NCBI RefSeq assembly: GCF_024171765.1
Contig: NZ_JAMTCI010000001.1
Span: 434,001-498,000, forward strand
DNA: 64,000 bases
Origin: Williamsia deligens
Lineage (GTDB): Bacteria; Actinomycetota; Actinomycetes; Mycobacteriales; Mycobacteriaceae
Direction: 5' to 3'
The notes below the pieces were generated by a model. The model had not been told where the DNA came from and did not search any database. It saw nothing but the letters and a program-made list of their open reading frames with translations. Shown here piece after piece: positions 11,614 to 63,812 of the stretch (positions within the stretch are counted from its first letter, which is position 1; the number at the start of each line of letters is the position of its first letter). Position numbers and translations under genes: made by a program.

Positions 11614-11952
11614 GTGGATGGCGACGACAAGCTGACAGTCCGATCGTCCGACCTCTTTCAGGCCGCCGGCCAGGTGAGGGAAGCGCGCGATGCGATCCAC
11701 AACGCAGCGTCCGCTGCCTATGGCCAGTTCCGCTCCGAGACGAAGGGGTGGATCGGGGACTCGAAGCGGGCGTTGGAGAAGGCGGTGGCCGAGCTGGAAG
11801 CCCACTCGAAGAGCATGACGAACGAGCTCGAGGAACGCGCAGGGCGCATCGATTACGCCGGCCGTGAATACGCCGCCACCGAACGGCGCAATGCGGAGAG
11901 ACTCAGGGCGTCCGGGAGGTCGTCGGGTCCGGGCCTGAACATGGACCACTGA
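11614..11952 (+). CDS. WXG100-family ESX substrate
   Basis: Small 112-residue helical-hairpin protein of the EsxA/EsxB family. KGWIGDS at about residues 43-49 is the WXG turn; REYAATE near the C-terminus contains a YxxxE motif at 86-90, the general type VII secretion signal. It ends in SGPGLNMDH, close to the SGSGLNMAV tail of the WXG100 protein at 14682. GTG start with GGAGG seven bases upstream. It diverges from the minus-strand operon beginning at 11518 and overlaps the 3' end of the convergent membrane-protein gene by 50 bp. It is probably exported as a partner of a neighbouring WXG-like protein; the partner is not established. Confidence 0.88.
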   Translation: MDGDDKLTVRSSDLFQAAGQVREARDAIHNAASAAYGQFRSETKGWIGDSKRALEKAVAELEAHSKSMTNELEERAGRIDYAGREYAATERRNAERLRASGRSSGPGLNMDH

Positions 11953-14681: not shown

Positions 14682-14993
14682 ATGCCCGAACTCGCCGTCA
14701 CCCCGGCCGAGGTCACGTCCGCCTCGCAGGGCATCCGTTCCGCCGCCGACACTCTCGACGATCGCGTCCAGGCACTCAGCTCTCGCGTCGAGGCACTCCT
14801 CGGCAGCGGGTGGAAGGGGCAGGCCGCGGACGCATTCCGGCGCGACTGGGAGCAGTGGCTCCACGGGGCGAAGGAGGTCGTCGACTCGATGTCCGCATTG
14901 TTGGCGTCCACCGCGCACGACTATTCGCGCCAGGAATCGTCGAACGCCGCGGCCGTCGGGCAGTCCGGCTCGGGCCTGAACATGGCGGTCTGA
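14682..14993 (+). CDS. WXG100-family ESX substrate, first of a pair
   Basis: A 103-residue EsxB/EsxA-type helical hairpin. GSGWKGQAA at about residues 43-50 carries the WXG turn; HDYSRQESS contains YxxxE at 81-85, the general type VII export signal. The C-terminus SGSGLNMAV resembles the tail of the WXG100 protein encoded at 11614. ATG start with GAGGGGG about five bases upstream. Only three bases separate it from the next WXG100 gene, so the two very likely form a co-exported heterodimer. It is the first gene of a seven-gene operon with almost no intergenic space; ESX core machinery is not in this window. Confidence 0.92.
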   Translation: MPELAVTPAEVTSASQGIRSAADTLDDRVQALSSRVEALLGSGWKGQAADAFRRDWEQWLHGAKEVVDSMSALLASTAHDYSRQESSNAAAVGQSGSGLNMAV

Positions 14994-14996
14994 CCG

Positions 14997-15287
14997 ATGG
15001 CCAAGCAGTTCACCGTCGCCACCGAGGAACTGGCCGACATCGTCGCCGACATGGCCCGTTTCGACTCCGACGCCGAGGCTGTCTGCCGTGACGCCGACCA
15101 GACCGTCACCCGCCTACACGGCTCGTGGACCGGCGAGGCCGCAGACGCCCAGCGCGCCGCCCACGAGAAGTGGACGCACGGCGCCGCCGAGATGCGCTCG
15201 GCCGTGGCCGATCTGCGCAAGGCCGGCGACACCGCCCACACCAACTACACCGCCGCGGTCAAGGCCAACCAGGAGATGTGGGGCTGA
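14997..15287 (+). CDS. WXG100-family ESX substrate, second of a pair
   Basis: A 96-residue helical-hairpin protein with HGSWTGEAADAQRAAHEKW around residue 43, the classic WXG turn followed by the helix-2 pattern. There is no YxxxD/E in its tail (NYTAAVKAN), whereas its partner at 14682 has one; this one-signal-per-dimer arrangement is usual for EsxA/EsxB-type pairs. It starts with ATG three bases after the stop of its partner and its stop codon shares one base with the ATG of the next gene (TGATG), indicating coupled translation. The heterodimer is inferred from gene order and family. Confidence 0.92.
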   Translation: MAKQFTVATEELADIVADMARFDSDAEAVCRDADQTVTRLHGSWTGEAADAQRAAHEKWTHGAAEMRSAVADLRKAGDTAHTNYTAAVKANQEMWG

Positions 15288-16945
15288 TGCCGACGCTCGT
15301 CGTCGACCCCGCGCAGTACGCGCACGCCGCGGACTCGATGGCCTCGGTCGCACAGGCCGCGCACGCGGCCGTCTCGTCGCTGTCCGGTGAGCTCGGCGCA
15401 TCGTCGGGCATGGGCGGTTCCGACGACGCCGGCACAGCGTGGGCGTCGGGCTACGACGACGGCGCCCGTGCCGCACTGAGCGCTGCGGCGTCCGCGGTCG
15501 GCGCGGTAGGGAACATCGCGACCCGGTTGCACGCCACCGGTGAGAACCACGCGCACGCCGACGCGTCGTCGACGATCGGCGGCGGAGGCGACGCCGGGAT
15601 GCCCGGAGCACCCACTCCCCCGACCATGTCTGCCCCATCGCTCCCGTCGGCGGCCGGCGGCAGTGGCGGTGGTCCGCCCGGGTGGTCGTTGGTCGAGGGG
15701 CTCGTCGGCTACGTCTGGCCGAACGGTCACCAGGACAGGCTGCACGCAGCCGACGCAGCGTGGAAAGCCGCTGCGGCACAATTGCAGGACGCCGCGGGGC
15801 CGACCAGCGCTGCGGCATCTGCTGTGTCCGCGCAGCAGAGCCCCGAGGTGGCTGCTGCCGCGCAGGCCTGCACCGATGCGGGTTCGCACCTGCGGGACCT
15901 GTCGTCGGTGTTCACCGAACTCGGGTCCTCGTGCTCGGAGTACGCCGCTCACCTCGACAAGGCGCACCACGAGATCATCCACGAACTCGAGGTGCTGCTG
16001 GCGCAGACCGTCGCGATCGAGGCTGTCAGCGCGATAGCCGGATTCTTCACCGCCGGCATCGGCGAACTCGCCGGCCAGGCTGTCGAGACCGCTCGACTCA
16101 CCGCTGCCGCCAACCGCATCCGCGAGATCATCCAGGCGCTGATCGCTGCTGCGCGAACGGCAGCGGCTGCAGTCGGCCGGGTGGCGGCCGAGGCAGGTCG
16201 CGTTGCGGCGGAGGCCGCGAAAGCAGCCGGATCGCAGGCGTCACGTGCCGTGGCCGAAGCTGCCGAGGCCACCGGCACGCAGGCAGCGAATGCTGCACGT
16301 TCGACAAGCGCGATGACGTCTAAGGCCGTGGACGCCGTACGGTCGACCGGCGCCGCGGCGGCTTCAAAGGCAACCGACGCAGCTCACACCGCGGGCACGC
16401 TCGCGGCGAACACGGCCCGATCCACAGGGGATCTTGCCTCGAAGGCTGCGGGAGCCGCACCCGGATTCGCGAAAAGTGCTGCGCGCGCGGCACCGATGAA
16501 TTTTGCGACAGGGGCCGGGATGGAGTTCGGGAAAGAGTCCGTGGAATCCGTCGCTTCGGGGCAGAACAAGCTCGACCCGACCAAGATCGTTGCGCAGGGC
16601 GCGATCAACTCCGTGACATCCCCCGTTGCAAAGGGGCTCAGCGAGCGGGCGCTTCCGAAGCCGATCGCCGTTCCCGGCGCCAAAGCACCGGATGAGAGTC
16701 TCTTGACGAAGACTGGGCGCACCGCGCTCACGGTGGGCGCCAATTCGGCGCTCAACAACGGTCAGCAAGCGCTTCATTCGAGCATCAGTCCCGACTCTGC
16801 CGAGCAGGTCGAAGGTACATCTCTGGTCGGGACGGTCAAGGACGTTCCCGCGGCAGTGCAGAATGCGCCCAAAGCGTACGACCAAGTACGCGATGCCGTG
16901 GAGAAGGCAGTGGAACCAAGGCCCACCGACGGAGAGGGACGATGA
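15287..16945 (+). CDS. large ESX carrier / polymorphic-toxin-like protein
   Basis: A 552-residue, Ala-rich helical protein without a signal peptide. Residues 1-95 form a WXG-like module with AWASGYDDGA; a Pro/Gly linker follows; residues about 120-260 form a second module starting PPGWSLVEGLVGYVWPNGHQ, as in N-terminal parts of actinobacterial ESX polymorphic toxins. A long Ala-rich coiled-coil (about 275-400) follows, then a last 130 residues with ATGAGMEFGKESVESVASGQ and DPTKIVAQGAINSVTSPVAK. I see no nuclease, ADP-ribosyltransferase or peptidase motif at the C-terminus, so the effector activity is unknown. ATG overlaps the upstream stop by one base and the stop overlaps the next start by four. 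Confidence 0.82.
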   Translation: MPTLVVDPAQYAHAADSMASVAQAAHAAVSSLSGELGASSGMGGSDDAGTAWASGYDDGARAALSAAASAVGAVGNIATRLHATGENHAHADASSTIGGGGDAGMPGAPTPPTMSAPSLPSAAGGSGGGPPGWSLVEGLVGYVWPNGHQDRLHAADAAWKAAAAQLQDAAGPTSAAASAVSAQQSPEVAAAAQACTDAGSHLRDLSSVFTELGSSCSEYAAHLDKAHHEIIHELEVLLAQTVAIEAVSAIAGFFTAGIGELAGQAVETARLTAAANRIREIIQALIAAARTAAAAVGRVAAEAGRVAAEAAKAAGSQASRAVAEAAEATGTQAANAARSTSAMTSKAVDAVRSTGAAAASKATDAAHTAGTLAANTARSTGDLASKAAGAAPGFAKSAARAAPMNFATGAGMEFGKESVESVASGQNKLDPTKIVAQGAINSVTSPVAKGLSERALPKPIAVPGAKAPDESLLTKTGRTALTVGANSALNNGQQALHSSISPDSAEQVEGTSLVGTVKDVPAAVQNAPKAYDQVRDAVEKAVEPRPTDGEGR

Positions 16946-17640
16946 CCGGGGCGACGGACAAACGTGACATCGATCCGTTCAGTCGGCAGCGCGGCTCGTC
17001 GCTGCTCGCAGGTCAGAGTCGGCCACCACACCTACGCGTTGTCGACAAAGGACGCGTGGTCGAGTGGCCGATTCCCTGCTATGGAGGCGGACCAGGCAAC
17101 GTTCCGATACCCGTTGTGTGGATTCGCCACCCGGAGTATCCGCGCAGCCAACCGGTTCTCGTGTTCGCGGGTCTCGACGACGCCGAGCCGATGTACACGT
17201 TGGCGAGGCCTCGGCGCGGGAGTAGAGCAACGGAGGTTCGCCGCCGCGACGGCTCGGTCGCAGCGGTTGTCAAGGCTCACCGCCTTCGCAGCGCTGTCCA
17301 CACTTACTGGTCGGTTGAGAATGACCGCGGCTCCTCGCTTTTCAGCTTGTCCGAACGTGGTCGAGACGCCCTGTGGCGAAGATCGCTCGGCATGCCGAGC
17401 CGGCTCGAGGGCGACGGCTTCGTTCTGGCCATCCCTGGATTTCTCGCAAGCGTGTTCCGAGGCCCGAACCAGATGCGCCTGCGGGACGGTACTGGTGGTG
17501 CCATCGGCACCGTCTCGTTCAGCCCCGGCATCTTCAGTCCGCGCGAGGATTTCGCCATCTACCTCGACAATCAGCCGTTTCCGCTCACAGACATCCTCCT
17601 CGCCGCGTGCGTTCTGGCCGCAATGCAGCGCACATACTGA
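16942..17640 (+). CDS. DALWRR-family protein, first of three paralogues
   Basis: A 232-residue protein of no recognised family. Its C-terminal 140 residues share a pattern with the next two genes: a TYWSVEN-type Trp-Ser/Thr-Val segment, DALWRR at residue 142, a short hydrophobic patch (FVLAIPGFLASVF), GGAIGTVSF, and a closing segment DFAIYLDNQPFPLTDILLAA. The beta-rich repeats with RDGS turns suggest an all-beta barrel, perhaps LURP/Tubby-like, but this is a guess. ATG overlaps the stop of the carrier gene (ATGA). Its place right behind the effector-like gene is where immunity genes usually sit. Confidence 0.8.
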   Translation: MTGATDKRDIDPFSRQRGSSLLAGQSRPPHLRVVDKGRVVEWPIPCYGGGPGNVPIPVVWIRHPEYPRSQPVLVFAGLDDAEPMYTLARPRRGSRATEVRRRDGSVAAVVKAHRLRSAVHTYWSVENDRGSSLFSLSERGRDALWRRSLGMPSRLEGDGFVLAIPGFLASVFRGPNQMRLRDGTGGAIGTVSFSPGIFSPREDFAIYLDNQPFPLTDILLAACVLAAMQRTY

Positions 17641-17655
17641 CGGGGACACGATCAA

Positions 17656-18393
17656 GTGGAACGTCACCACACTCGCGATGCAGGCGTCACGCTCTCAGGT
17701 GCTCGCCGGATCATCGAACGCGCCAGGCACGGACGTCGGGTGCCCGGCGAGCTGCGCAATTCCCGGAGTCGACCACATCTTCGGGTGGTCGCCTCATCGA
17801 GGCGACCCGCCGAAAGACTGCCCGCACTGACGTCTTCAGGGGCCAACAGCTCTGCGGACTTCCTGTGGCTCGAGCAGCCTGCCGACAATGACGATGGCCC
17901 GGTGCGTTGTTACGAGAACGAGTGTTCAGCGGAACCGGTCTACGAGGTGCTCAGACGGGCGGACGACCCGTTTGTGCGGGAGGTCCGTCGCGCAGACGGC
18001 GAAATCGCACTGACCGTGTTTCGGATCTCTGGGTGGCCACGGACGAAGTGGACCGTGAACACCCCAGGACATGTGGACGCGTACTTGATCGCAGAGCGAC
18101 GCCGGGATGCGCTGTGGCGACGCACCATCGGTCGTCTGACCAAGATCCAGGACTCGTCGATCGACATCGTTGGTCTGGTGGTGGCAGCCATCGCATTTCC
18201 AGCGCTGTTGATGCCCGCGAACCGTCTCGAGATCACCGACCGCTCCGGTGGCCGCGTCGGACTGGTGACGATCCCTCCGTCGCTCAGCAGACCGCGAGAC
18301 AGCTACTGCTTGTATCTCGATTCTCAGCCGCTGCCGCTGTCTGACGTCACGTTTGCGCTCCTCGCCATCGCCGTGGTCCAGGACCTCAAGTGA
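17656..18393 (+). CDS. DALWRR-family protein, second of three paralogues
   Basis: A 245-residue paralogue of the preceding gene product. After a basic, low-complexity N-terminus (about 50 residues) come EVLRRADDPFVREVRRADG, TKWTVNTPGH, RRRDALWRRTIG (Asp at residue 151), a hydrophobic segment IDIVGLVVAAIAFPALLMPA that could be membrane-associated, GGRVGLVTI, and YCLYLDSQPLPLSDVTFALLAIA. GTG start 15 bases after the preceding stop, with only GGGGA as a weak ribosome site. The end overlaps the next start by four bases. Function unknown; a duplicated immunity or adaptor role is possible from position only. Confidence 0.78.
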   Translation: MERHHTRDAGVTLSGARRIIERARHGRRVPGELRNSRSRPHLRVVASSRRPAERLPALTSSGANSSADFLWLEQPADNDDGPVRCYENECSAEPVYEVLRRADDPFVREVRRADGEIALTVFRISGWPRTKWTVNTPGHVDAYLIAERRRDALWRRTIGRLTKIQDSSIDIVGLVVAAIAFPALLMPANRLEITDRSGGRVGLVTIPPSLSRPRDSYCLYLDSQPLPLSDVTFALLAIAVVQDLK

Positions 18394-19352
18394 TCACCTC
18401 GCCGAGAAGTGCTGCCCTGGCGGACGCCGTCGCGACGGTCGACCACATCGTCGGACTCCTGCGGACTCATGGTCCGGACTCGTGCGGCACCGCCCTGCAG
18501 ACCATTGCCGACATCGGTCGTGAAGGCCTCACCGGAGCCGCAGACCCCGTCGACGCAGCGATCGAGATGAGGCGACGCTGGGGTCATCTGGGGCGCCCGT
18601 TCTCCGACGTCGTCATCCACTCCGATGAGCACGACGAGCGGACTCGCCTCAACAGCGAGCTCGAGTCGCTCAAGATCCAGTTCGATCGCGCCGTGACGTC
18701 CGTGATCATCAACAGGGACATCGGCGAGGAGTCACGCGATCACCTGACCGGTGAGACCACCGGGTACGAGGTGGGCACGTTCACGAGCACCTCCGGCGCG
18801 CGTAGACCCGTCATCAGGTCCACCGAGGCCGAAGTGGTCGACTTCTGGGTCGGCTTCGATGACGCAGGCCGGCAAGTCGACCTGTTCGGCGGACGTCACG
18901 CGGAATCCTGTGTCCTACGCATCTCCGGAGACAGGCGACGTCGACAGGTGGTCGACTCTGCGGTCGACGTCGCAGTCCACCGCGTGGAACGCATCTCCGC
19001 TGCCTTCCGTACACGGTGGTCTGTGACAGACGCGACCGGCACCGAGATCTTCCGGCTCGTCGAGGGCATCGGTGACGCACTGTGGCGTCGCCTCGTCCGG
19101 CCTTTTCCGCGGGCGTTCAGCGGCGGCGCGCCTGATGTGTTCGGCGCGATCCTGTTGTCGCCTCTACTCCTGCTCGCCAGGGTCAGACCGTATTGCCACA
19201 TGTCTGTCGCCGACAGTGCCGGTGGCATCGTCGGAAGAATCACCTTCGCGTCCGATGTGCGGTCGGCTCGCGAACATCTCCTCGTCACGAGCGAGGTGTC
19301 GTCCATCGATGTCTTGGTCGCGGCGCTGGCTGCGGTATCGGTGATGCGCTGA
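18390..19352 (+). CDS. DALWRR-family protein, third paralogue with extra N-terminal domain
   Basis: A 320-residue paralogue. The first 130 residues are an additional helical region (ALADAVATVDHIVGLLR; SELESLKIQFDRAVTSVIIN). The shared domain follows: FRTRWSVTDATG, IGDALWRRLVRPF (Asp at residue 229), a hydrophobic GAILLSPLLLLA segment, GGIVGRITFASD, and IDVLVAALAAVSVM at the end. The closing QPxPLxD segment seen in the other two copies is degraded. GTG start overlaps the previous stop (GTGA). Divergence among three tandem copies argues for old duplication followed by specialisation; function unknown. Confidence 0.78.
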   Translation: MITSPRSAALADAVATVDHIVGLLRTHGPDSCGTALQTIADIGREGLTGAADPVDAAIEMRRRWGHLGRPFSDVVIHSDEHDERTRLNSELESLKIQFDRAVTSVIINRDIGEESRDHLTGETTGYEVGTFTSTSGARRPVIRSTEAEVVDFWVGFDDAGRQVDLFGGRHAESCVLRISGDRRRRQVVDSAVDVAVHRVERISAAFRTRWSVTDATGTEIFRLVEGIGDALWRRLVRPFPRAFSGGAPDVFGAILLSPLLLLARVRPYCHMSVADSAGGIVGRITFASDVRSAREHLLVTSEVSSIDVLVAALAAVSVMR

Positions 19353-19353
19353 C

Positions 19354-19692
19354 GTGACGAGCATCCTGGGCGACGGGCCCCCGTACTCCCCTGAGGTCAG
19401 CGCTGCGATCGTGTGGGCTTACACGCACCGGCGAGAGCGAGGCGGTCCTCCAGGCGTCACTCCAGACTGGGTACTCGAACGGTGGGGTGACGACTTTGGC
19501 AGCCGCGTCCTTGCCATCATCGAACGTCTGCAGAAGCAGGCCGACGACGTCGAGGTCCGCATCGACTGGGCGACCACCACCCTGGCCGACGGCCAGCGCC
19601 TCGTGCAGCATCACCTTGTCGACACGAATCCGGGGTTGAGCGAGCACGCGGCGAACCTGATCGCCCGATGGCTCTCGTTCCAGGTCAGATGA
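19354..19692 (+). CDS. small helical protein closing the ESX operon
   Basis: Not recognised. A 112-residue acidic, helical protein (VLERWGDDFGSRVLAIIERL; ADDVEVRIDWATTTL) with no signal peptide or WXG motif. Its GTG start is one base after the stop of the DALWRR paralogue, so it is part of the same operon. Size and composition would suit a chaperone or adaptor for an ESX cargo, similar in role but not visibly in sequence to EspG-type helpers; that is inference from context. It ends about 120 bp before the OYE-type reductase gene. Confidence 0.7.
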   Translation: MTSILGDGPPYSPEVSAAIVWAYTHRRERGGPPGVTPDWVLERWGDDFGSRVLAIIERLQKQADDVEVRIDWATTTLADGQRLVQHHLVDTNPGLSEHAANLIARWLSFQVR

Positions 19693-25775: not shown

Positions 25776-26030
25776 TCAACCTAACCGATGAATTTTGGCG
25801 ACAAAACACAGGTCGTCGTCGATCCGCGCTGACGACATCACAGCGACGCCAAACCTCTCGGCATGCGGTGCTAATGCCTCCGCAATCTGCCACAACGAAC
25901 GACGACCGCGCGGGATCACCCACGCGGGTAACCCGACCGCCGGGTCTCTCGGCGTCCGCAGTCGAGCCGAGGCGGTCCGCGCGAGCACTATTACCAACGC
26001 CGCAAGCCGCGGAAGGATGGCGTTGATCAG
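25776..26030 (-). CDS. possible 84-residue protein with CTG start
   Basis: Low-confidence gene. The frame reads LINAILPRLAALVIVLARTA to DDDLCFVAKIHRLG with codon usage like its surroundings. A perfect AAGGAG (26043-26038 on the minus strand) stands seven bases before a CTG at 26030; there is no ATG or GTG in a better place, though in-frame TTG codons occur later. Its stop is 22 bases from the start of the next small gene at 25753. It could also be the remnant of a longer gene, since the frame stays open back to 26204. Function unknown. Confidence 0.35.
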   Translation of the reverse strand: MINAILPRLAALVIVLARTASARLRTPRDPAVGLPAWVIPRGRRSLWQIAEALAPHAERFGVAVMSSARIDDDLCFVAKIHRLG

Positions 26031-26287
26031 AGCTTTTCTCCTTGTAAGCGCCTCCGTCCCGCACGACTGACCGGCACCGACGCGATGACGTCTAGTTGCA
26101 GACGGAGGGGTAGAGTTCGCTCGCGGTAGCTTGCATAACTGGGGCTTGGGAAATCGACAGTACCCAAAATGTTGAACCATGAAGGCGTTCCCATAAAGCC
26201 CCAACGCGAGCGACAGTCGCGACTTCAGTTGCGGCCCACGCGCTTTGTCATACTCAAACGCTCCCGCATAATCGAACCCACATTAAA

Positions 26288-27892
26288 CTATCGCAGCACA
26301 GGAATGCGCGCAATAGCAATTCCGAAGCCCAGCATTCGCAACTGACGCCCTTGTTGCATTAAGTTCAACTTGCTGAAGAAAGGGAGCCAGTCCCGACCAG
26401 GCTTTTCAGAGTTAGCAACGACAGCGTACGTAATGCAGTAATGAGACCGGTCGACACTTTCGTCGCCGGCGGGGATCAAGTCAGTCCAGCTGGCGCGTTG
26501 CGCATCCGGCAGCTGCTTTTCGATCAGCTCGCGAACACGCGCACGGAAAACTCCATCATTAACAAAGGTGAGAGCAGAAACGCCACCCTGCGCGAATAAA
26601 TGACTAAGGGTTGAGGATCGTGATTTTCTCTTGATATGAATTAAGTCGCCATTCTTCGACAGCAGGTCACAGAATTCGATCCCGCTACTCGCTCCTCCGG
26701 GACGCCGGATTCGCGCGTCAAGGTTGATAATTTCGTCCGGAAAGACACTTGCCACTCGCGCGTTATAGGCGGACTCGATTTCACCAGATCTGGCAGGCGG
26801 AAATGTGAGCCGCGCGCCTGGAAGGGACTCTGCGAACGCGTCAACTTCCTGAACTAACGTAGAGCTTATTGCGAACCAGCGGCCTTCGATCAGGACGTGC
26901 AGCTTGTCTTCAATCCGCTGCTCCGACACGAGGCACCGGTAAATGCTTGACCGTTTATCGAAGTTTCCGGATCTCCCAAAACGCACCGATACGTGACGTG
27001 ACTTGAGAACCGACAAAGAGATAACCGCGCAGTCCGCGCCAAGACGTTCGAGATACTCATCAAGGTCTAGTTCGTCGTAAATGTGATCTCGCGTCCCCCC
27101 CAGTGTGAATCCGTCGACATCCGCCCATTCGATTGACTCCGGCAGAGCAAGGTGCGAACTCGCCGCTGCCCCGGATCGCAACTCGTCTACGAGAAGCTGG
27201 TCCAATGTCGAAACCACTCCTGGGTCTCGCACCTGGGACAATTGATCGATCCATCCAAAGTCCGTCTTGTAATCGTCAGCACCGAATGCGATGAGCAGGT
27301 CATCACAGATTTCGGGCAGTTTGGACACTGGCTCCTTTACACCCATGATAAGCGAATCGGATCCAGCGATCCGTGTCGCGAAGTCCCGGTCGCGGGGCTC
27401 GCCAGTGACTGCTCGCAATATGTCGGTGGCGATATCGACACCGAAGGTCGGTAGCTCTGCGCTTTTGCTCGCTTGAGTACTAGTCGACACAACTAGGTCT
27501 TCGAACGTTTTCGTGTCGAGGCCGCGGATCTGACGGGGGTCGATCCGATTCAGTGCGACCCGCAGGCCAAACTGGTACTCGATTTTGGACAAGTCGAGAA
27601 GCGATCGACCATAGCCAAACGTGAGCGCAAACATGCGTCCAGACGTTCTAAGAAGCAACAGTCCCGCCGTCGACGAAGAACGCACAGTCACCAAATTGGC
27701 TTGCAGTGCGGGCTGCACAAATCCCACCCACCGTGGTACCGATGGCCGGGGCTCGGTGTAGTAGAAGCGCCCGTCGATACCGGAAGAAGGATCGAGGTCA
27801 GCGATAAGGCCGGGCTTGTCGGGGTCGCGAGCATCATCAAACTCGACTACGCCGTCCCTCAGCAGATGGAACGTCAACCGCATCGTGTTCAT
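26288..27892 (-). CDS. TIGR04141 / DUF6119 family defence-associated protein
   Basis: A 534-residue cytosolic protein. The order LLLLRTSGRMFALTFGYGRS, LLDLSKIEYQFGLRVALNRI, then FGVDIATDILRAVTGEP, and the late GDLIHIKRKSRSSTLSHLFA segment with GGVSALTF, fits the sporadically distributed TIGR04141 family (DUF6119), which is found in restriction and phage-defence islands. Its biochemical role is not established; the late K-rich block looks like part of a nuclease-like or nucleic-acid-binding fold. ATG at 27892 chosen over a TTG nine codons earlier. Base composition is visibly more A+T-rich than the flanks. It diverges from the DUF4145 gene across about 400 bp. Confidence 0.82.
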   Translation of the reverse strand: MNTMRLTFHLLRDGVVEFDDARDPDKPGLIADLDPSSGIDGRFYYTEPRPSVPRWVGFVQPALQANLVTVRSSSTAGLLLLRTSGRMFALTFGYGRSLLDLSKIEYQFGLRVALNRIDPRQIRGLDTKTFEDLVVSTSTQASKSAELPTFGVDIATDILRAVTGEPRDRDFATRIAGSDSLIMGVKEPVSKLPEICDDLLIAFGADDYKTDFGWIDQLSQVRDPGVVSTLDQLLVDELRSGAAASSHLALPESIEWADVDGFTLGGTRDHIYDELDLDEYLERLGADCAVISLSVLKSRHVSVRFGRSGNFDKRSSIYRCLVSEQRIEDKLHVLIEGRWFAISSTLVQEVDAFAESLPGARLTFPPARSGEIESAYNARVASVFPDEIINLDARIRRPGGASSGIEFCDLLSKNGDLIHIKRKSRSSTLSHLFAQGGVSALTFVNDGVFRARVRELIEKQLPDAQRASWTDLIPAGDESVDRSHYCITYAVVANSEKPGRDWLPFFSKLNLMQQGRQLRMLGFGIAIARIPVLR

Positions 27893-28288
27893 AAGCCATC
27901 TTTCAGAAGACGGTGTCAATTGCTAAGCGCGATTTGCGCACCCACGGCGATCGCAGGCCGGTTCCCTTGCGCTTTGGTCTGGCACCCGTCTGCGATGAAG
28001 ATCATACCGGCCGTTTTACCTACCTACTAGCCCCAGTGTTACAGCCCTGGATTCGCCTCATCGCCCGCGTAACAGCAGCACCAGTTCCTCGAGGCACCTT
28101 TTGTTGACCCGAGCTCGCAACATTCGAGCCGCTTCAAAAGCATTGCCGCCCCCAAGGACAGCCTGTCAACTAGCATCGTTCATCAAGTGCGCAGCCCATC
28201 GACTCTGCGCGTGCTCTAGGCCGAGTATCCGGCTGATGGCATGGCCCGCCATGTCGCGGCTGGGTCTCATACGCGGAAAGAAGCGTTG
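27893..28288. other. 396-bp divergent intergenic region
   Basis: Lies between the divergently transcribed TIGR04141 and DUF4145 genes and must hold promoters for both. I see no convincing gene on either strand. AT-richer patches such as CGTTTTACCTACCTACTAGC, and TTGACC near 28103, are possible promoter elements, but none has a clear partner box. Confidence 0.4.
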
Positions 28289-29023
28289 ATGTTAACCGAC
28301 ATCCGAAACTTGGCGAGGTGGTTCGACTCTGATGAGTGGCCAGCGCTGCCGTGCCCCCGGCCAGATTGCTCCGGTCGACTTTCAATGCCCGCCGACGAGA
28401 TCCGGCACGACAAGTGGGACTACACGCACCAGAACTGGCAGGACTGGGGCGACCCGACCGATATCGAGGCCGTGTTCGTAGGCAGACTTCAGTGTTCGCG
28501 GGCGAAATGCCAAGCCGTTGTAGCCGTCAGTGGTCTCTACGGCGTTCAGTACGCCGACATCCGTGGCAGTTACACAGATGTGCTGCGCGTGCGGACGCTC
28601 TTTTTAGCGGTGCCGCTCTTCGAAACTCCGCCCGGCACGCCAGGCAGCGTTGCCTCGGAACTGCTACGCGCAGCGCAGCACATTTGGCTAGACCCAGGTG
28701 CGGCTGCAACATCACTCCGTCGCAGTCTCGAGGCTCTGCTGACGGAGCAGGGTGTACCAACACAAAAGGGCCCATGTCTTTTACGGCTCCACCAACGCAT
28801 TCTGTTGTTTCGGGATATGTCCCCAGAAGTCGGCGATCTGGTTGAGGCAGTTAAGTGGGTGGGAAACGACGGGACCCACGCCAGCGGCAGTCGGATGACG
28901 GCCGACGATGTACTTGACACTGCCGAGATGATCGAAGTGGCTCTAGGCGTGCTTTACGCAACAAATGCGGCCATCCACGCCCGAGCCGCCCGAATTGTAG
29001 CCGCAAAGACTCTTGTCCCGTAG
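28289..29023 (+). CDS. DUF4145-domain protein with N-terminal Cys pairs
   Basis: A 244-residue soluble protein. The N-terminal part carries LPCPRPDCSGRL and a later LQCSRAKCQAVV, two CxxxxC-type pairs that could bind zinc. The C-terminal 110 residues fit DUF4145: ATSLRRSLEALLTEQGVP, a long helix, then VEAVKWVGNDGTHASG and a final helix. DUF4145 domains occur in many restriction and anti-phage islands, often fused to or beside nucleases, and are thought to be regulatory or adaptor modules. ATG at 28289 has GGAAAGAAG upstream; a longer frame to 28241 lacks one. It diverges from the TIGR04141 gene, which may be its partner. Confidence 0.8.
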   Translation: MLTDIRNLARWFDSDEWPALPCPRPDCSGRLSMPADEIRHDKWDYTHQNWQDWGDPTDIEAVFVGRLQCSRAKCQAVVAVSGLYGVQYADIRGSYTDVLRVRTLFLAVPLFETPPGTPGSVASELLRAAQHIWLDPGAAATSLRRSLEALLTEQGVPTQKGPCLLRLHQRILLFRDMSPEVGDLVEAVKWVGNDGTHASGSRMTADDVLDTAEMIEVALGVLYATNAAIHARAARIVAAKTLVP

Positions 29024-29271
29024 GGGTTCTGGAGCGTCGTGCCAATGAGACAACTCAGCAAACCAGCGCCCGAGCGTCTTGCCCGTCTAGCAGTGTTGCA
29101 ACTAAGCCCCGAAACACAAACGCTGGCGCCTAGCCGCGCACTCTCGCGTTGACCATAGTGCGTGCGCCAGTGTAATAATTAATTGAAGATAAGCGCCAAA
29201 CACCGCTTCATCCTATCGGCCGCTTTGCGGATTCGCTTTGGGCTTTGACCGCGCGGCGGCCGTTCCACAGC

Positions 29272-30477
29272 TCATAACCAGGCGGCTACCCCGCCGTGCC
29301 CGGAGCATGTACCCCGTCGGTGCTGGCTAAACGAATAGGTGCCGTCCTCGCACTGCGCGGTCGCGTCATCCGGTGCCGAGTTCGCGGCAACCGGGCTGTG
29401 AATGCAGTTGCCGTCAGAATTGACATACGAATTGCCACCGCATCCTGACCCGTAATCATTGCCGGCCGGGGGCGGTGCCTGATACGTCTTCGTGGGCGGT
29501 GGGACGTAAGCCTGGACCGGCGGAGGCGTCGCGCGAGACTGGGTCGTGGGCGGTGGGACCGGGGACGGGGTGGCTTTCGTCACCGGCGGTGTCGCACCGC
29601 AGCCGGTCAGAACGCGGATCATGGCGTCCTTCTCGGGCTGGGTCACCCAGAGCTTGTAGATCGCTTTGACATCGATCTGGCGCGAGACATAGGTGCACCG
29701 GTACGACGTATTCGACGGCAGCCACGTCGCCGCGTCACCGTCACTCTTCTGCTCATTCGTCGGACCGTCAGTCGCCTGCAGGTTGCGTGGATCGTTCGCG
29801 AAGTCCTGGCGCTGCGCAGCCGAAAGCTGCTGCGCGCCCGTCTGCCACGCATCCGACAGCGCCACCACGTGATCGATCTGAACAGCCGACGAAGCAGTTC
29901 CGCCTGTGAACGCGATTGTTCGCCCGGTATACGGGTCGGCCAGCGACCCGGTCAGCACAGTGCACCCGTGCGAGCCGGGCTTGATCGTGGTCGTGGTGAG
30001 GTCTCGGCGCAGGATGTCGTTGCGGGTGTCGCAGCCGTTGTGTCCGGACTTGACGTCGACGTCATCGGTCCAGGCTTGGCCAAACATCTCCCGGCCGTGC
30101 CCAGTCTTCGGCGCCCGGCCCTTCACCGGCAGCGACTCGAGCTTGGTGAGCGCAGCGTTTGCAGGCGCTGCGGAATCCACAGGCCTTGCGACCGGAGCCA
30201 CCGCCAACGTCGGCTCCGGGGTTGGTGCCGCCGATGGGGTGGTCATCGCTGGCGGCGTGCTCGAGGTGCTGACGGCGCCCGCCGATGCGGTCTTGGTGCT
30301 GGTGTCTGTCTCCTGCTTCGGGGCGACAAGCCCGATGATCAGGAAGGCCACGAACACCGCGGCCAGAATGAATGGCCACTTACGGCGCTTCTTTGGTGGC
30401 TGCGGCGGTAGCCAGCTGGGGAGATCGCCGGGACGGTCAAAGTTGAATCCGGACAGATCCGGCGGGGGCGCAGACAC
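29272..30477 (-). CDS. membrane-anchored HNH nuclease (DUF1524) with DUF3761 tail
   Basis: A 401-residue protein: proline-rich cytosolic start, one membrane segment (KWPFILAAVFVAFLIIGLVA, about 33-52), a Thr/Ser/Pro-rich linker, an HNH nuclease domain of DUF1524 type (about 105-290, with AVQIDHVVALSDAWQTGAQQ, then NDPRNLQATDGPTNEQKSDG), a Pro-rich linker, and a C-terminal DUF3761 module (CEDGTYSFSQHRRGTCSGHG). Topology places the nuclease outside the membrane, as in secreted actinobacterial HNH proteins; it may take part in DNA scavenging or competition rather than restriction. GTG at 30477 chosen because the conserved SAPPPDLSGFNFDRPG follows. Confidence 0.85.
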   Translation of the reverse strand: MSAPPPDLSGFNFDRPGDLPSWLPPQPPKKRRKWPFILAAVFVAFLIIGLVAPKQETDTSTKTASAGAVSTSSTPPAMTTPSAAPTPEPTLAVAPVARPVDSAAPANAALTKLESLPVKGRAPKTGHGREMFGQAWTDDVDVKSGHNGCDTRNDILRRDLTTTTIKPGSHGCTVLTGSLADPYTGRTIAFTGGTASSAVQIDHVVALSDAWQTGAQQLSAAQRQDFANDPRNLQATDGPTNEQKSDGDAATWLPSNTSYRCTYVSRQIDVKAIYKLWVTQPEKDAMIRVLTGCGATPPVTKATPSPVPPPTTQSRATPPPVQAYVPPPTKTYQAPPPAGNDYGSGCGGNSYVNSDGNCIHSPVAANSAPDDATAQCEDGTYSFSQHRRGTCSGHGGVAAWL

Positions 30478-31130
30478 GAATAGATGGCTTTCTGGCACGA
30501 GGGAGGCGGGACGCGAGGTGTCCCGAACACATGTATACGTGACGCCGCACACGCCGTTACATCAATTTGATCCGGATCACTCGGGCGCGCATGAGTGTGC
30601 AGCGCCTAAACCTTCAGGCCCGGCGACGACGCGCCCCGTGGCGGCACGGTTGGCCCGCAGCACCGCCGGGCGACCTACCGCCTTGAGGAAGTTCGAGTGC
30701 CGTTGCGGCTGCGAAGTTTAGTCGCGTCGTTCCTCGGCTTGCTCTACTGTCCGCTCGGCCAGCCGCTGCGACGCCGCCTTCAGAGGGCGGGCGCCAGCAA
30801 CTGGCGGCGCTGCAGGGTGTAGTTCGGAGGGCCCTCAACCGCGTGGGACGGAGGGCGGGAACAGCGGCGCGCACGGAGCCGTCGGCGCGGGGTGCTCGGA
30901 CGGGGAACTCGCGCAGCACGGTGAGCGTGGCGAGTCGCAGCGGGATCCGCATGGGGACGCTGACCCGACGCCTCATCGAACGTCCCTGGTGCCTCCAGAG
31001 CGGCAGCCTCCTGGCGAGAACACAATCCGAATTGGATTCAGGAAGGTTCGGTATCTGACTGGCGACGCTCCGACCGGACTGTCTTGCAGAAAGGAAATCG
31101 AGGCGTCGCCGACGGGTAATCGAGTCGGGT
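30478..31130. other. 653-bp region without a supportable gene
   Basis: Lies between the start of the HNH nuclease gene and the end of the McrC-like gene, both on the minus strand. Open frames exist on both strands (for example 30614-31276 minus and 30843-31058 plus) but their products are Arg/Pro-rich, show no motif, and lack ribosome sites. The central 350 bases are much more G+C-rich than the flanking island genes, so this may be a fragment of different origin or the remains of a gene. No inverted repeats of insertion-sequence type were noticed. Confidence 0.4.
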
Positions 31131-33326
31131 CTAGCGCTGTGTGGGTGAATCGGGTCCCTCGTACCCTTGCGTGGACAGCACCACGTCGAGCCAAGTTGTC
31201 GAGTAAGGCCGGCCTCGCAGCCAGCCCTCTGGGAGCAATCGCGAGATGTCGATTTGATGCAACCATGCCGGAGCATCCACCTCTTGGAGGCGGGCTACCA
31301 GATAGGCCTCCCCTCTCGGCGCTGGATACCCCAGCCGCTCTAGCGACTTGCGGGTGGCTCCCTCCCACACCCCGACGCGGGCACAAAGAGCCAACTGCGA
31401 GTCTTCGGCTGCGGCTCCGTATAGCAGCATCAAGGGACCGTCCAGCGCTTGCTCACCCCGAGCCACCGCGCCTCTACGCTCACCAGTTCGGACGTTGTAA
31501 AGGCCCGTATGGCGGATCCATCGCCAATGGGCATCAGACCGCACATAACCGAGAAGCACCCCCGTGTCGGCCGGAGGAAGCTCGCCGACTGGCGGCTGAG
31601 CAAGTGGGTTGTCTGTCCCCTCACCCGCATAAGCGAGCGCTGACCAGTAAGTCGCCCGTCGGTATCGGGTTCCTGACGCAGCAACATGTTGAATCGAGCG
31701 ATTGACGAACTCGGCAAGCCTAGTCGTGTCCTGACCGCTCTCGTCGGGCCGCAGGGGAAAGGCACCGAGTCCGGGTAAGAACTCACCTTCTGCGAAAGCG
31801 AACTCGGCCGCTCTCGAACCGGGGAAGAGAACGTAGGAGCCGGCCGACGCACGAATCGCGTCCCTATAGGCATGCATCTTCAAAAGGTCGGTCCGCTTAC
31901 TGGTCCCGCTACGGCGCTCCGAGTCTTCCTCCTCAGCCACTTCGCCCGTCTCAAACGGACTCGCCCAATCGACCCGATACTTTGCATCGAAGTGGAGCCA
32001 TGTCTCTTGGCCACCCGGAGCGCGAATGAGAAGGCTTGCGTCAGGTCGCATGGGACGAGTCCAGCTGGCCTCGCGAAATTCCTTGTTAAAGAACAAATCA
32101 ATGAGCACCGCCTGGCCCGCAACGACGGTCTCGAACTTGAGCCGCGTCATTGCGTCTGCCCTCAGCACCAGCGACATTCCGGTCCCTGACGCCGCAAAGA
32201 GCTCTGCTGCGACATCGCGGCCTCCGCATGCTTGCGCAACGGCGTCGGCAAGCCGAGTGAAGGTCCAGTATTCGTACAGGGAGGCAACGCTCCTGCGCGA
32301 CACGAGCAGCAAATCCTCGAGATCAACGTCTAGCCCGACGGTGCCTTCGACCAGTGCCCATGCTGCATATAGCTGTCGATACCCCTCACGGCGACGCAGA
32401 ACCTGGTTGTCACCCGGGAACACCGAAAGCGGCTCGACCTCTCGAAATAGCGGCACGGAGAGAACCTCATCAAGCAAAGCGACCAGATCGCCCGCTTGCT
32501 CGACGCCGCGGCGTTTGGCCGCGCCTCCTAGCTTGTCGGCTTTTCGAACCACTTCAACCGCGATCGCACGCCACCGCTCTAAAGCGAACCGGGCGAAGCG
32601 ATTTGCGATCGTGTCAACCGTTTCTTCCGTCCGGTCGATAAGCAGAGAACGGGGCATGGAAGAAAGTGGCCCGCGCGGCGTCAGTACCCGAGCTCCTGGC
32701 CGGCCGAGCTGACCCCCCAACCTAGAGGACCCGCGCAACGGACGTCCTGGAGGGCGAGGCTCCTGAACGGACTCCCAAGCCCGGTGTGGATCAGCAAGTA
32801 TTTGAGAGATGGCCCACAAAAGATCAGATCCGGCAAGCAAGGACTGCAGAACCGCAAATTGCTGGTAGAGCAAGCGCGGAGAGTCGCCCGCCGCGCCTCC
32901 ATACAATCCCGAGCTCGGCGCAAAGCCCTGGTGCATCGCCTCTATCGAAAGCTCCGCCAGATCCGCCAGCATCCGGCCGAACGCCTGTTCATCCGAGAAC
33001 TTTGCACTGCGTACGTCGAACCGCCCCCGATAGTTTTCACCTGATGCAGTAGTGACCATCACCGACACGACGCCGACGGACTCTCCTGGAAGGAGGCGGC
33101 CCGCGGCGAAAGAGTTGTCGTCGAAGTCAAATAGCTCGGAAGGCTCAACTTTGCTAATTTGCTCGGATAGGTCGAATTTGAACCGGTAGACACCGCCCTC
33201 TCGAAGAACGACTGCACCCGCGGCAGCAACCTCAGGGTTGAGATACGAAGCTCTCGGCAAGCTCGATATGGTTAGTCGACCGCTTAGGTCGCCATCCCCA
33301 ATCAACTCCACCACCGCTGGAATCAT
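31131..33326 (-). CDS. McrC-like DUF2357 restriction nuclease subunit
   Basis: A 731-residue protein that should be the nuclease partner of the McrB-like ATPase encoded immediately upstream (two bases between stop and ATG). Residues about 1-430 are a DUF2357-type region (LYEYWTFTRLADAV near residue 350 is characteristic). The nuclease site is of PD-(D/E)XK type: RPDASLLI followed by WLHFDAKYRVDW near residue 442, then a KMHAYRDAI helix as in DUF524 nucleases. The C-terminal 180 residues (GYVRSDAHWRWIRHTGLYNV) form an extra domain, possibly an EVE/PUA-type reader. Expected role: cleavage of modified DNA in a type IV system. Confidence 0.85.
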   Translation of the reverse strand: MIPAVVELIGDGDLSGRLTISSLPRASYLNPEVAAAGAVVLREGGVYRFKFDLSEQISKVEPSELFDFDDNSFAAGRLLPGESVGVVSVMVTTASGENYRGRFDVRSAKFSDEQAFGRMLADLAELSIEAMHQGFAPSSGLYGGAAGDSPRLLYQQFAVLQSLLAGSDLLWAISQILADPHRAWESVQEPRPPGRPLRGSSRLGGQLGRPGARVLTPRGPLSSMPRSLLIDRTEETVDTIANRFARFALERWRAIAVEVVRKADKLGGAAKRRGVEQAGDLVALLDEVLSVPLFREVEPLSVFPGDNQVLRRREGYRQLYAAWALVEGTVGLDVDLEDLLLVSRRSVASLYEYWTFTRLADAVAQACGGRDVAAELFAASGTGMSLVLRADAMTRLKFETVVAGQAVLIDLFFNKEFREASWTRPMRPDASLLIRAPGGQETWLHFDAKYRVDWASPFETGEVAEEEDSERRSGTSKRTDLLKMHAYRDAIRASAGSYVLFPGSRAAEFAFAEGEFLPGLGAFPLRPDESGQDTTRLAEFVNRSIQHVAASGTRYRRATYWSALAYAGEGTDNPLAQPPVGELPPADTGVLLGYVRSDAHWRWIRHTGLYNVRTGERRGAVARGEQALDGPLMLLYGAAAEDSQLALCARVGVWEGATRKSLERLGYPAPRGEAYLVARLQEVDAPAWLHQIDISRLLPEGWLRGRPYSTTWLDVVLSTQGYEGPDSPTQR

Positions 33327-33328
33327 TC

Positions 33329-35365
33329 TTAATCCGTGAAGCTCACAAATTGATTGATTTCGGCGGAACGTAGCATGCGCCTCAGCTTTGATGCGCTCAG
33401 CGGCAATGCCGCCATGTCTAAATCATTCAAGGCGAAGCCTTGATCCGCATCCGCATCCGGTGTAGCAGCGAACGCGGCTAAAGATTTCAACACAGGTTCG
33501 GCACGTCGCCGTGAGCCGTGAATCTTCGGCAGGATTTTCAGAAGGACTATGAGATCTAAGGCCTTATTCCGCTCAGCCACACCGAGCTGTTGGAGCGCTG
33601 CAGCGAACCTCAAAGCTTCATAGAACACGCGGTGGCCAAACTCGTCGTCTGTATCTGAGAGTCGTTTATGCAGATCGCGCAGTGCGGCTGACACTGCACT
33701 CCTCCGATTGGTCCCTTCTTGCCACCGGTCGTCCCGGACGAGCTCGACCATACCGCGTAGGTGCGCGACATCAGCGGACGGGATGGCGCTTGGGCGGACG
33801 ATCTCATCGGAAAGATCTTCGGTGCTGGTTCGAACCTCGAAGGTCGCCGCACGATCGAGCACTTTGGGTGAAAACTGATAGGTCGTTTCGTCCACGTTCA
33901 CAGTTCCAATTACGAAAATGTTGCGAGGAAGTGCTACCAGTCGTTCTTCCGAACTCTTTAACCGCCACTCACCATCCGGCCCCACCGCTAGATTCGGAAG
34001 AACCGCGTCACGGGATTCGAAGCCGGAAAGGAAGTCCGAGAAGTATCGTTCGACGTGCGCTAGGTTCATTTCGTCCAGCAACAACAGGTACGGCATATCG
34101 GGCTCTTCCACCGCGGACAGAAAGAAACGTAGAGTGTCGGGCACGAACCATGCGGCTCTACCATTCAACGGTGGACGCAACGCGTCTTCGTAACCAAAAA
34201 TCGCCTCGGGTCCAGTCCAGTCCGGACGGACCGCGACCGGCAGGAAACGTCGGCCGTTCGGCCCTGATCCAAACCACTCCCCGAGACGGAGGGCAAGCTG
34301 AGTCTTGCCACTCCCCGACATTCCAGCCAACATCACCAACGGTTTTGTCACCAACGCCGCGAGGAGCGTCAGTACGAGGTCGCCGTGCCCGGTACGAACC
34401 CGAAGGCCCGAGGCATCTACCGCATCTCGGAAGGCCGACGCAATCTGTGCAAGTGACGACACACCCCCTCGTTCCACCTTTGGCTTATTAGCATTGTCGA
34501 TGGCGCTGTCCGATAGATCGAGTACCGCATCAATATCACGAAGGATTTCCGCGTCGTCAGGCACGGATCCGCGGGCGTAGAATTTGTGGACGATTGTGCT
34601 GGCCGCGTAATCCCGCGCAAGAGTACCGTTCCCTAGCGAAATCGCGTTGTCCGCCATGAACGAACGACTGCGGAGATCCGGAGTTGCTAGAGCTCTTACC
34701 CTCGAGGCGGTCGCCTCAAGCTGCTTTAGCATGTGATCGCGTCCCAGCTTTTTTAGCTCTTGTGTTCCCTGCGCAAGTGTGACGTACACACCCGACATAT
34801 CCTCGCGGAAGAGGAGAACCGGGTAGATGCCACTTTGCGTTGTTTTAGTGACGCGGCCGTCTAGCAGAGCAATCCACGGCGCCGCGGCCCAGTTCCCGAG
34901 ACCTACAGATCCCTTCACTTTTACGTGCGGTCTAGCTATCAGCGGTCCACTCTGTCCAATCCGCTCTTGCAGCGATCGCAGCGTCGCCATGACTGGGTGC
35001 GACCCGCTAAAGCTCCCCGTGCGCGCTTCGCGGTACTCGTCCATAAACTGTTCGAGAAGTGACTGAACTGCCCTGCCGCCGGGCTCGGTCTTGAGGATGA
35101 CGTCGAAGCCAGCAGGTTTGTAGGCTGCGCGCAGTTGGTGTCCACCGTTGAACTCAGTGTTCTTCAGAGTGCCTTCGTCCGGATGGTCGAGTCCGTACGC
35201 GACCCCCGCTATGGCCTTGGGGTCGTACTCGCGGCCGTCGACCACAAGGGCGTAGGCCGTAGCGCGCCCAAACCCGTGTTTGCTTAGGAACGCGTCCCGG
35301 CCGAGGTCGTCGTACTCCCGAATCGCTTGCTCAATAGCGTCTCGCGACAGCACTCCGAGGGCCAT
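33329..35365 (-). CDS. McrB-like AAA+ NTPase with N-terminal DNA-reader domains
   Basis: A 678-residue motor subunit of a type IV (modification-dependent) restriction system. Residues about 1-95 resemble the head domain of Streptomyces McrA (EYDDLGRDAFLSKHGFG; YDPKAIAGVAYGL). Residues about 100-230 match the MrcB N-terminal DUF3578 domain (KVKGSVGLGNWAAAPWIALL; YVTLAQGTQELKKLG). The AAA+ core has Walker A AGMSGSGKTQ near 350, Walker B LLLLDEMNLAHVERYFSDFL, and the sensor VIGTVNVDETTYQFSPKVLD, where McrB proteins show their GTPase motif. ATG at 35365 chosen; GTG at 35386 or TTG at 35392 are alternatives. It is operonic with the McrC-like gene. Confidence 0.87.
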   Translation of the reverse strand: MALGVLSRDAIEQAIREYDDLGRDAFLSKHGFGRATAYALVVDGREYDPKAIAGVAYGLDHPDEGTLKNTEFNGGHQLRAAYKPAGFDVILKTEPGGRAVQSLLEQFMDEYREARTGSFSGSHPVMATLRSLQERIGQSGPLIARPHVKVKGSVGLGNWAAAPWIALLDGRVTKTTQSGIYPVLLFREDMSGVYVTLAQGTQELKKLGRDHMLKQLEATASRVRALATPDLRSRSFMADNAISLGNGTLARDYAASTIVHKFYARGSVPDDAEILRDIDAVLDLSDSAIDNANKPKVERGGVSSLAQIASAFRDAVDASGLRVRTGHGDLVLTLLAALVTKPLVMLAGMSGSGKTQLALRLGEWFGSGPNGRRFLPVAVRPDWTGPEAIFGYEDALRPPLNGRAAWFVPDTLRFFLSAVEEPDMPYLLLLDEMNLAHVERYFSDFLSGFESRDAVLPNLAVGPDGEWRLKSSEERLVALPRNIFVIGTVNVDETTYQFSPKVLDRAATFEVRTSTEDLSDEIVRPSAIPSADVAHLRGMVELVRDDRWQEGTNRRSAVSAALRDLHKRLSDTDDEFGHRVFYEALRFAAALQQLGVAERNKALDLIVLLKILPKIHGSRRRAEPVLKSLAAFAATPDADADQGFALNDLDMAALPLSASKLRRMLRSAEINQFVSFTD

Positions 35366-35688
35366 CAGATCAATACCGTCCAACACATGCAAACAACCTT
35401 ATGTAGGTCGCGGCCATTTGTGGGTCGGCGCGCCACATGAGTAGAGCCTCTTCAACTCGTGGTGGTACGCAAGGAAACGCGTAGACGCGAATCGGTCGAG
35501 GACCAGGCCCGCTCGGCATTTGCTCCGTGTGCGCCTCCGTCACGTGCGCAGCATTCTGTTCCGATGAAAGGACAGGTCCAGCAGGGGCGTTGGGTCCAGA
35601 AGCACCCGACCTGACCAGCCTGAGTCAGAAGTCGCCCCTGTGTCGCTAACCTGAGTGCTGCGGACCGACGGGCTTCCTTCCAGCGTCG
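35366..35688. other. 323-bp divergent intergenic region
   Basis: Lies between the McrB-like gene (minus) and the nuclease-helicase gene (plus), so promoters for both must lie here. I saw no gene, repeat or clear terminator. Open frames opposite the helicase start are Arg-rich shadows without support. Confidence 0.4.
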
Positions 35689-63773: not shown

Positions 63774-63812
63774 CACGTCACCACCGCCGTCCACCGACCG
63801 CGTCGGTCGCCC

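Follow-up and report, generated by a model that had tools for sequence, protein, structure and literature searches.

Polymorphic toxins of the type VII (ESX) secretion route have a recurring layout, set out in the relevant part of PMC10654092 for PEST3 and for EsxF-EsxE-CpnT: two WXG100 genes precede a toxin whose N-terminus, of some 300 residues, is built from two modules. Parts of PMC10765036, PMC7456083 and PMC3482391 likewise describe immunity genes that stand in tandem without being identical, polyimmunity loci of mixed make-up and polyimmunity proteins with two domains. Here we consider a seven-gene, plus-strand operon at 14682-19692 of a 64,000-nucleotide stretch of Williamsia deligens DNA (‘the window’; 434-498 kb of a 3.08 Mb contig), comprising two WXG100 genes, a large effector gene and four further genes, P4 to P7. 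With PEST3 of Mycobacterium abscessus prophages and with EsxF-EsxE-CpnT, as that part of PMC10654092 presents them, it shares the two upstream WXG100 genes, the two-module N-terminus of about 300 residues, a swappable C-terminus and an immunity-type gene that goes with the C-terminus. Unlike PEST3, the cassette is chromosomal and has no phage or plasmid match; it departs from both PEST3 and CpnT in having a toxin domain of no known family, as well as three paralogous and two unrelated immunity-like units. We read the locus, with a probability of roughly 0.85, as a toxin-immunity cassette of the polymorphic, type VII (ESX) kind, carried on the chromosome and ending in a polyimmunity tail; a reading drawn from sequence comparison. 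We call it ‘PEST3-like’, and not a PEST, because that class is phage-encoded and no phage or plasmid record matches.

The anatomy of a polymorphic toxin is indicated because the N-terminus of the effector is conserved whilst its ends differ in kind. Relatives of the large protein were found at E ≤ 0.001 in 19 of 61 genomes (its own counted), the three best named ones all belonging to Williamsia, which places the host with that genus and not with Gordonia. Across five same-genus copies, identity over the N-terminal 300 residues ranges from 50 to 98% when taken in 50-residue blocks, and then falls sharply; in six further copies, including those from outside the genus, identity of the N-terminal blocks is lower. 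Recognisable ends include a TNT domain in a second copy carried by Williamsia herbipolensis (G004; 5.4e-17), a GH-E nuclease in G014 (6e-18) and DUF6883 in G035 (6.9e-12), along with a weak ADP-ribosyl-cyclase-like match in G013 that lies below the cut-off (E 0.005); the ends of the G006 and G031 effectors have no Pfam match. Genes of the same flanking families, the downstream one of which we take to be an Old Yellow Enzyme homologue, border the changing part in G002 and G006, and likewise, with one gene fewer, in G004. Judged from these alignments, the operon represents one allele at a polymorphic toxin locus that is widespread, and not an isolated module.

The end carried by the window's effector, which we term type A (residues 401-543), is present in five of eight Williamsia genomes, with E-values of 4e-22 to 2e-7 when detected independently in the search of 61 genomes. 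Wider scans gave no counted match outside Williamsia among 401 genomes of the family (one, at E 0.008, was not counted) and none among 296 genomes of the class; these scans, for type A and for the P4 family alike, scored only the best 7-14 candidates per genome, such that diverged copies may be missed, and in the 401-genome scan matches to sequences serving as rows of either profile are there by construction. Four copies sit on the usual N-terminus, and a fifth (L087, in G003) on a different one, with a WXG100_2 match (7e-17).

The gene directly after a type-A effector belongs to the P4 family in all five loci (the window, L074, L076, L078 and L087); the two genes share four bases in the window, L076 and L087, and stand 76 and 57 bases apart in L074 and L078, respectively. 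Three further Williamsia effectors end differently (one in G006, one in G003 and the second copy of G004), and such a gene follows none of them; in G004, where two effectors are present, the P4-family gene separates them, coming immediately after the one with type A. The exact test for 5/5 versus 0/3, worked by hand, gives 1/56, from strains that are few and related. On these sequences the stronger argument is that the pairing is seen on two different effector N-termini. Correlated divergence of toxin and partner (r = 0.73 for P4, 0.75 for P5 and 0.50 for P6, with 5, 5 and 16 of 120 permutations reaching as high) is confounded by relatedness and names no cognate gene.

These comparisons bear directly upon a first-pass annotation of the operon, made from the sequence alone, which had proposed an effector plus helper or immunity module and anticipated that the C-terminus of the large protein would vary between strains together with the paralogues. 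The latter is what we find, and the proposed effector plus immunity module is likewise supported; the relatives of P7 and of the P6 N-terminus, however, adjoin effectors of other types. The annotation had also named two observations that would count against it. The first, homologues of the large protein occurring routinely without the paralogues, is to the letter what is seen, since many toxins are joined to that N-terminal part; the type-A C-terminus itself was not found without the paralogues. As to the second, paralogues in unrelated contexts with a known enzymatic function, paralogue-like domains do lie away from ESX effectors at two loci (L085 and L108, below), with no known enzymatic function there.

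Several points weigh against a toxin-immunity cassette. Type A matches no toxin family in Pfam, NCBIfam, PHROGs, PADLOC or the PDB sequences; it contains no strongly hydrophobic stretch, and none of the most hydrophobic stretches of its own protein falls within it, which counts in particular against a membrane target. The comparison of 5/5 with 0/3 is a small sample from only eight related Williamsia genomes, and one of the three effectors without type A, that of G003, seems damaged. The neighbour at L087 is remote, having been missed by tblastn with P4, P5 and P6; a profile from which it had been left out recovers it at E 5.7e-7, and one restricted to the six closest members at 1.2e-4, compared with 0.2 or more for unrelated proteins, and hhalign places it with the P4 family at 91%, with 100 shuffles far below. 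A lone P4-family gene (L085:6692-7315) lies, amongst what we take to be haem biosynthesis genes, in G001, a genome without a type-A match. Two tandem genes in G003 (L108:4257-7366), encoding proteins of 562 and 458 residues, carry the P4-family domain at the C-terminus and are not beside such an effector; their long N-terminal parts have no Pfam match, and an initial likening to PH-like domains (DUF4429) was dropped when Pfam returned nothing.

That no known toxin domain is visible in the last 130 residues of the large protein, as the first-pass annotation had remarked, holds in library scans: over its full length WXG100_2 was the sole Pfam match and NCBIfam, PHROGs and PADLOC returned none, such that identification with a known toxin was abandoned, and the type-A profile had no credible match among PDB sequences (best E 0.07). 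Since type A terminates in a variable tail and contains no known catalytic domain, and the P7 and P6 N-terminal units look orphan-like, one might suppose that the effector is a toxin stub, type A being only a linker or pre-toxin segment whose catalytic end has been lost, and the tail either a remnant or an array for defence alone. We regard this as quite improbable, given that open homologues in five genomes have kept type A, each beside a neighbour of one and the same class and on two different N-termini between them, and that the other-ended effectors of G006, G031 and G013 have no type A before their own ends.

For the P4 family, Pfam gave no match above its cut-off for any of ten members, the few weak ones disagreeing with one another, and the family profile found nothing beyond chance among PDB sequences (best E 0.76). 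Against a combined alignment of LOR (PF04525) and Scramblase (PF03803) sequences, hhalign gave the ten members a probability of 81.4% (score 41.9), the six closest members 86.2% (44.2) and a set of nine, two of them untrimmed, 41.5% (36.7). For the same three sets, probabilities were 24.7%, 51.1% and 6.2% against scramblase alone, and 9.4%, 2.0% and 1.8% against LOR alone. Shuffled columns reached scores of 19.1 (200 shuffles) and 18.1 (100 shuffles), twelve other Williamsia families scored no higher than 20.4 against the same combined profile, and LOR against scramblase, as a positive control, gave 94.5%. The combined alignment holds 8 LOR sequences (of nine loci, a partial one being left out) and 11 scramblase sequences (of 20 loci, all plus-strand; four more plus-strand loci and the minus-strand ones were dropped for convenience, and not by score), from the same order as the host.

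We consider a remote relationship of the P4 family to scramblase/LOR likely on this evidence. The LOR/scramblase (Tubby-like) fold is a closed β-barrel around a C-terminal helix. The resemblance, at the level of profiles, spans some 100 columns and is colinear along the chain; the P4 family differs in its lack of a Pfam match for ten members, its low probability against LOR alone, its operon context and an added hydrophobic segment. A 19-residue segment with mean hydropathy of at least 1.6 is found in nine of the ten members, the maximum in P4 itself being 1.26.

A remotely scramblase/LOR-like family, next to a type-A end with no known catalytic domain, could also be taken to mean that the large protein is a carrier and that P4, P5 and P6 are its exported cargo, acting upon lipids as effectors in their own right. 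This we hold to be highly improbable: in the sister loci with TNT or GH-E ends the position of the P4-family gene is taken by other genes, often presumed immunity genes, the P4-family proteins have no WXG100 match, and three different copies in one genome suit an immunity array better.

Returning to the toxin-immunity cassette, our first guess, tentative and offered at somewhat less than even odds, is that type A acts on the membrane or envelope; a guess prompted by the family of its neighbour and by the precedents of TspA-TsaI and TelE-TipE. Those membrane-acting toxins of the T7SSb class pair a helical, non-enzymatic C-terminus with a protective, specific neighbour, and are likened to our system by description only (from parts of PMC10434224 and PMC7456083). 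More doubtfully still, P4, P5 and P6 might form a new class of type VII immunity protein, a lipid-associated Tubby/LOR/scramblase-like barrel with a membrane-dipping segment, set against a new helical, membrane-attacking toxin (type A), and exerting its protection at the bilayer or through it, instead of blocking an active site.

The relationship amongst P4, P5 and P6 differs from what had first been supposed. They had been annotated as three divergent paralogues, and their homology stands (P4 shares 31% identity with P5 and 27% with P6); the third, however, proves to be a fusion of another N-terminal domain with the paralogue domain. That they are a triplicated family does not survive: in a tree of ten sequences 0% of 200 bootstrap replicates unite the window's own three, and two of them group with partner proteins from other strains, the P6 C-terminal domain with that of G002 and P5 with that of G004 (support for the latter falling below the tool's star). 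Local triplication was accordingly rejected, and the three genes are best read, from this tree, as separately retained or acquired alleles. The P4 family was found in six Williamsia genomes amongst the 401 of the family, its members having also been detected independently of that profile; weak matches, which were not counted, occur in three other genomes of the 401 (E 1.6e-4 to 3.8e-3) and in three others of the 296 (E 2e-5 to 1e-3).

The rest of the tail looks to effectors of other kinds. Homologues of the P6 N-terminal domain occur as genes of their own, downstream of other-ended effectors, clearly at L077/L070 and weakly at L079, and the P7 relative in L080 lies directly after an other-ended effector. 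Amongst 201 genomes, P7 has relatives in three others: G013, G003, where the gene stands alone, and G039, as a weak frame with a stop. The tail is thus made of tandem genes of unrelated families (the P4/P5/P6 family, the P6 N-terminus and P7), each with relatives beside different effector types, and P4-P7 as a whole reads as a mixed polyimmunity array, on the presumption that its members confer immunity. At L079:7407-8898, four small genes follow the G031 effector, the first resembling the gene after the G006 effector and the last the P6 N-terminus; this run looks like another mixed immunity-like array.

As far as the relevant parts of PMC3482391, PMC10765036 and PMC7456083 extend, the tail has in common with polyimmunity loci and with the EsaG and TsaI arrays of Staphylococcus aureus tandem, non-identical immunity genes placed after the toxin, a mixture of families and a two-domain immunity-like protein. 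Its families differ from all those that these parts name, and the words ‘LURP’, ‘scramblase’ and ‘tubby’ are absent from the portion of the PMC3482391 text covered.

Synthesising these observations, we propose that the pair of WXG100 proteins would form, with the two-module N-terminus of the effector, an export-competent complex, presumably exported by the one ESX system found in the genome, and that the type-A domain would be the toxic cargo that related bacteria receive. In the producer, type A might be neutralised by P4 or by either of its two paralogues; the remaining members, together with the P6 N-terminal domain and P7, may protect against toxins of rival strains, whether variant or unrelated. 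The cassette is probably secreted against rival bacteria, and the genes that follow probably protect the cell from its own toxin and from those of its rivals.

In the literature searched we found no work joining scramblase, immunity protein and polymorphic toxin, nor any joining Williamsia, type VII secretion and toxin, and nothing relevant to LURP-one, scramblase or tubby with toxin or immunity amongst the matches listed. The type of system is already familiar; as far as the literature and libraries searched extend, the toxin and immunity families seen here look new. The locus would extend the CpnT/PEST3 type of ESX toxin to the chromosome of an environmental actinobacterium and define a presumed toxin-immunity pair outside Pfam and NCBIfam, and it suggests that Williamsia strains collect the immunity alleles of their rivals, as staphylococci do with EsaG and TsaI. 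Were the scramblase/LOR relation true, a lipid-associated fold would join the immunity repertoire and a membrane target would be indicated.

The first-pass annotation was right that no ESX core genes are nearby: a single EccC clears the family cut-off (712-715 kb of the contig), with EccB, EccD, EccE, mycosin and two WXG100-like genes just beyond it, at 716-723 kb. Its description of the module as self-contained does not hold, as the cassette would need this machinery, some 260 kb from the operon. A location on a mobile element was considered and set aside, as neither the effector N-terminus (searched against 50,697 phage and 72,556 plasmid records) nor P5 has a phage or plasmid match.

All seven open reading frames agree with the earlier annotation in their coordinates and in their six junctions (+3, -1, -4, +15, -4 and +1), as do the WXG100 pair and the two-module, WXG-type layout of the large protein (Table 1). 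The YxxxD/E motif, present in the first WXG100 partner, is a secretion signal. The effector gene sits within a longer open frame that begins at 15125. P4, P5, P6 and P7 have no Pfam match above cut-off and none in NCBIfam or PADLOC, and their sole match in PHROGs is a weak one for P7 (E 0.18). Judged by a codon-usage gene caller trained on the window, which called only parts of both, P4 and P5 fit the codon usage of the host poorly. The guanine-plus-cytosine content falls from 72% over effector residues 1-330 to 64-66% over residues 331-552 and P4-P7, which agrees with a presumed exchange of the effector end together with the tail. A promoter and terminator scan returned no promoter-like site and two terminator-like sites, neither on the plus strand, with counts no higher than in shuffles.

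Table 1. Genes and domains of the operon (window coordinates)
Feature	Position	Strand	Evidence
Gene 1, WXG100 partner 1, 103 residues	14682..14993	+	Pfam WXG100 3e-16; WxG and YxxxE motif (YSRQE) by pattern
Gene 2, WXG100 partner 2, 96 residues	14997..15287	+	Pfam WXG100 2.5e-11; lacks YxxxD/E
Effector, polymorphic toxin-type, 552 residues	15287..16945	+	N-terminus conserved, C-terminus swapped among relatives
Effector secretion module 1, residues 1-128, WXG100-like	15287..15670	+	hhalign 75% to gene-1 family
Effector secretion module 2, residues 133-256, WXG100_2	15683..16054	+	PF25547 2.8e-12
Effector Ala-rich linker, variable length, residues 301-400	16187..16486	+	Alignment; identity drops here
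Type-A C-terminal domain, presumed toxin, residues 401-543	16487..16915	+	Alignment; 5/8 Williamsia genomes; no known family
P4, first paralogue, presumed immunity protein, 232 residues	16942..17640	+	4-base overlap with effector gene
P5, second paralogue, 245 residues	17656..18393	+	Tree sister of G004 partner protein, support 86/89
P6, third paralogue, two-domain, 320 residues	18390..19352	+	N-terminal domain fused to paralogue domain
P6 N-terminal domain, residues 9-95	18414..18674	+	tblastn: L070/L077 6e-15, L079 6e-4
P6 paralogue domain	18900..19349	+	Tree sister of G002 partner protein, support 100/99
P7, presumed orphan immunity protein for another toxin type, 112 residues	19354..19692	+	39% identity to effector-adjacent gene of L080, 1.5e-21

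Two of the related loci show further peculiarities. In Williamsia herbipolensis the second effector copy (L071:8501-10692, the same place as L076) comes directly after the first cassette, and its TNT-ended gene is followed by one encoding 206 residues that has no Pfam match. In Williamsia sp. CHRR-6 the effector locus (L077:6932-9518, the same place as L070) is apparently damaged, the effector frame starting late, and the second WXG100 gene was not found there.

Elsewhere in the window, the codon-usage caller called almost nothing over 25800-35800, where open reading frames match DUF6119 (26288-27919), DUF2357 with PDDEXK_7 (31131-33326) and MrcB_N (33329-35392); this is probably a foreign, McrBC-like defence island. 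Three other genes of type VII secretion type also lie in the window, encoding a WXG100/EspC-like protein (11614-11952), an EspA-like TPR_23 protein (40027-42243) and an Abhydrolase_8 protein with a weak WXG100 match (62247-63794).

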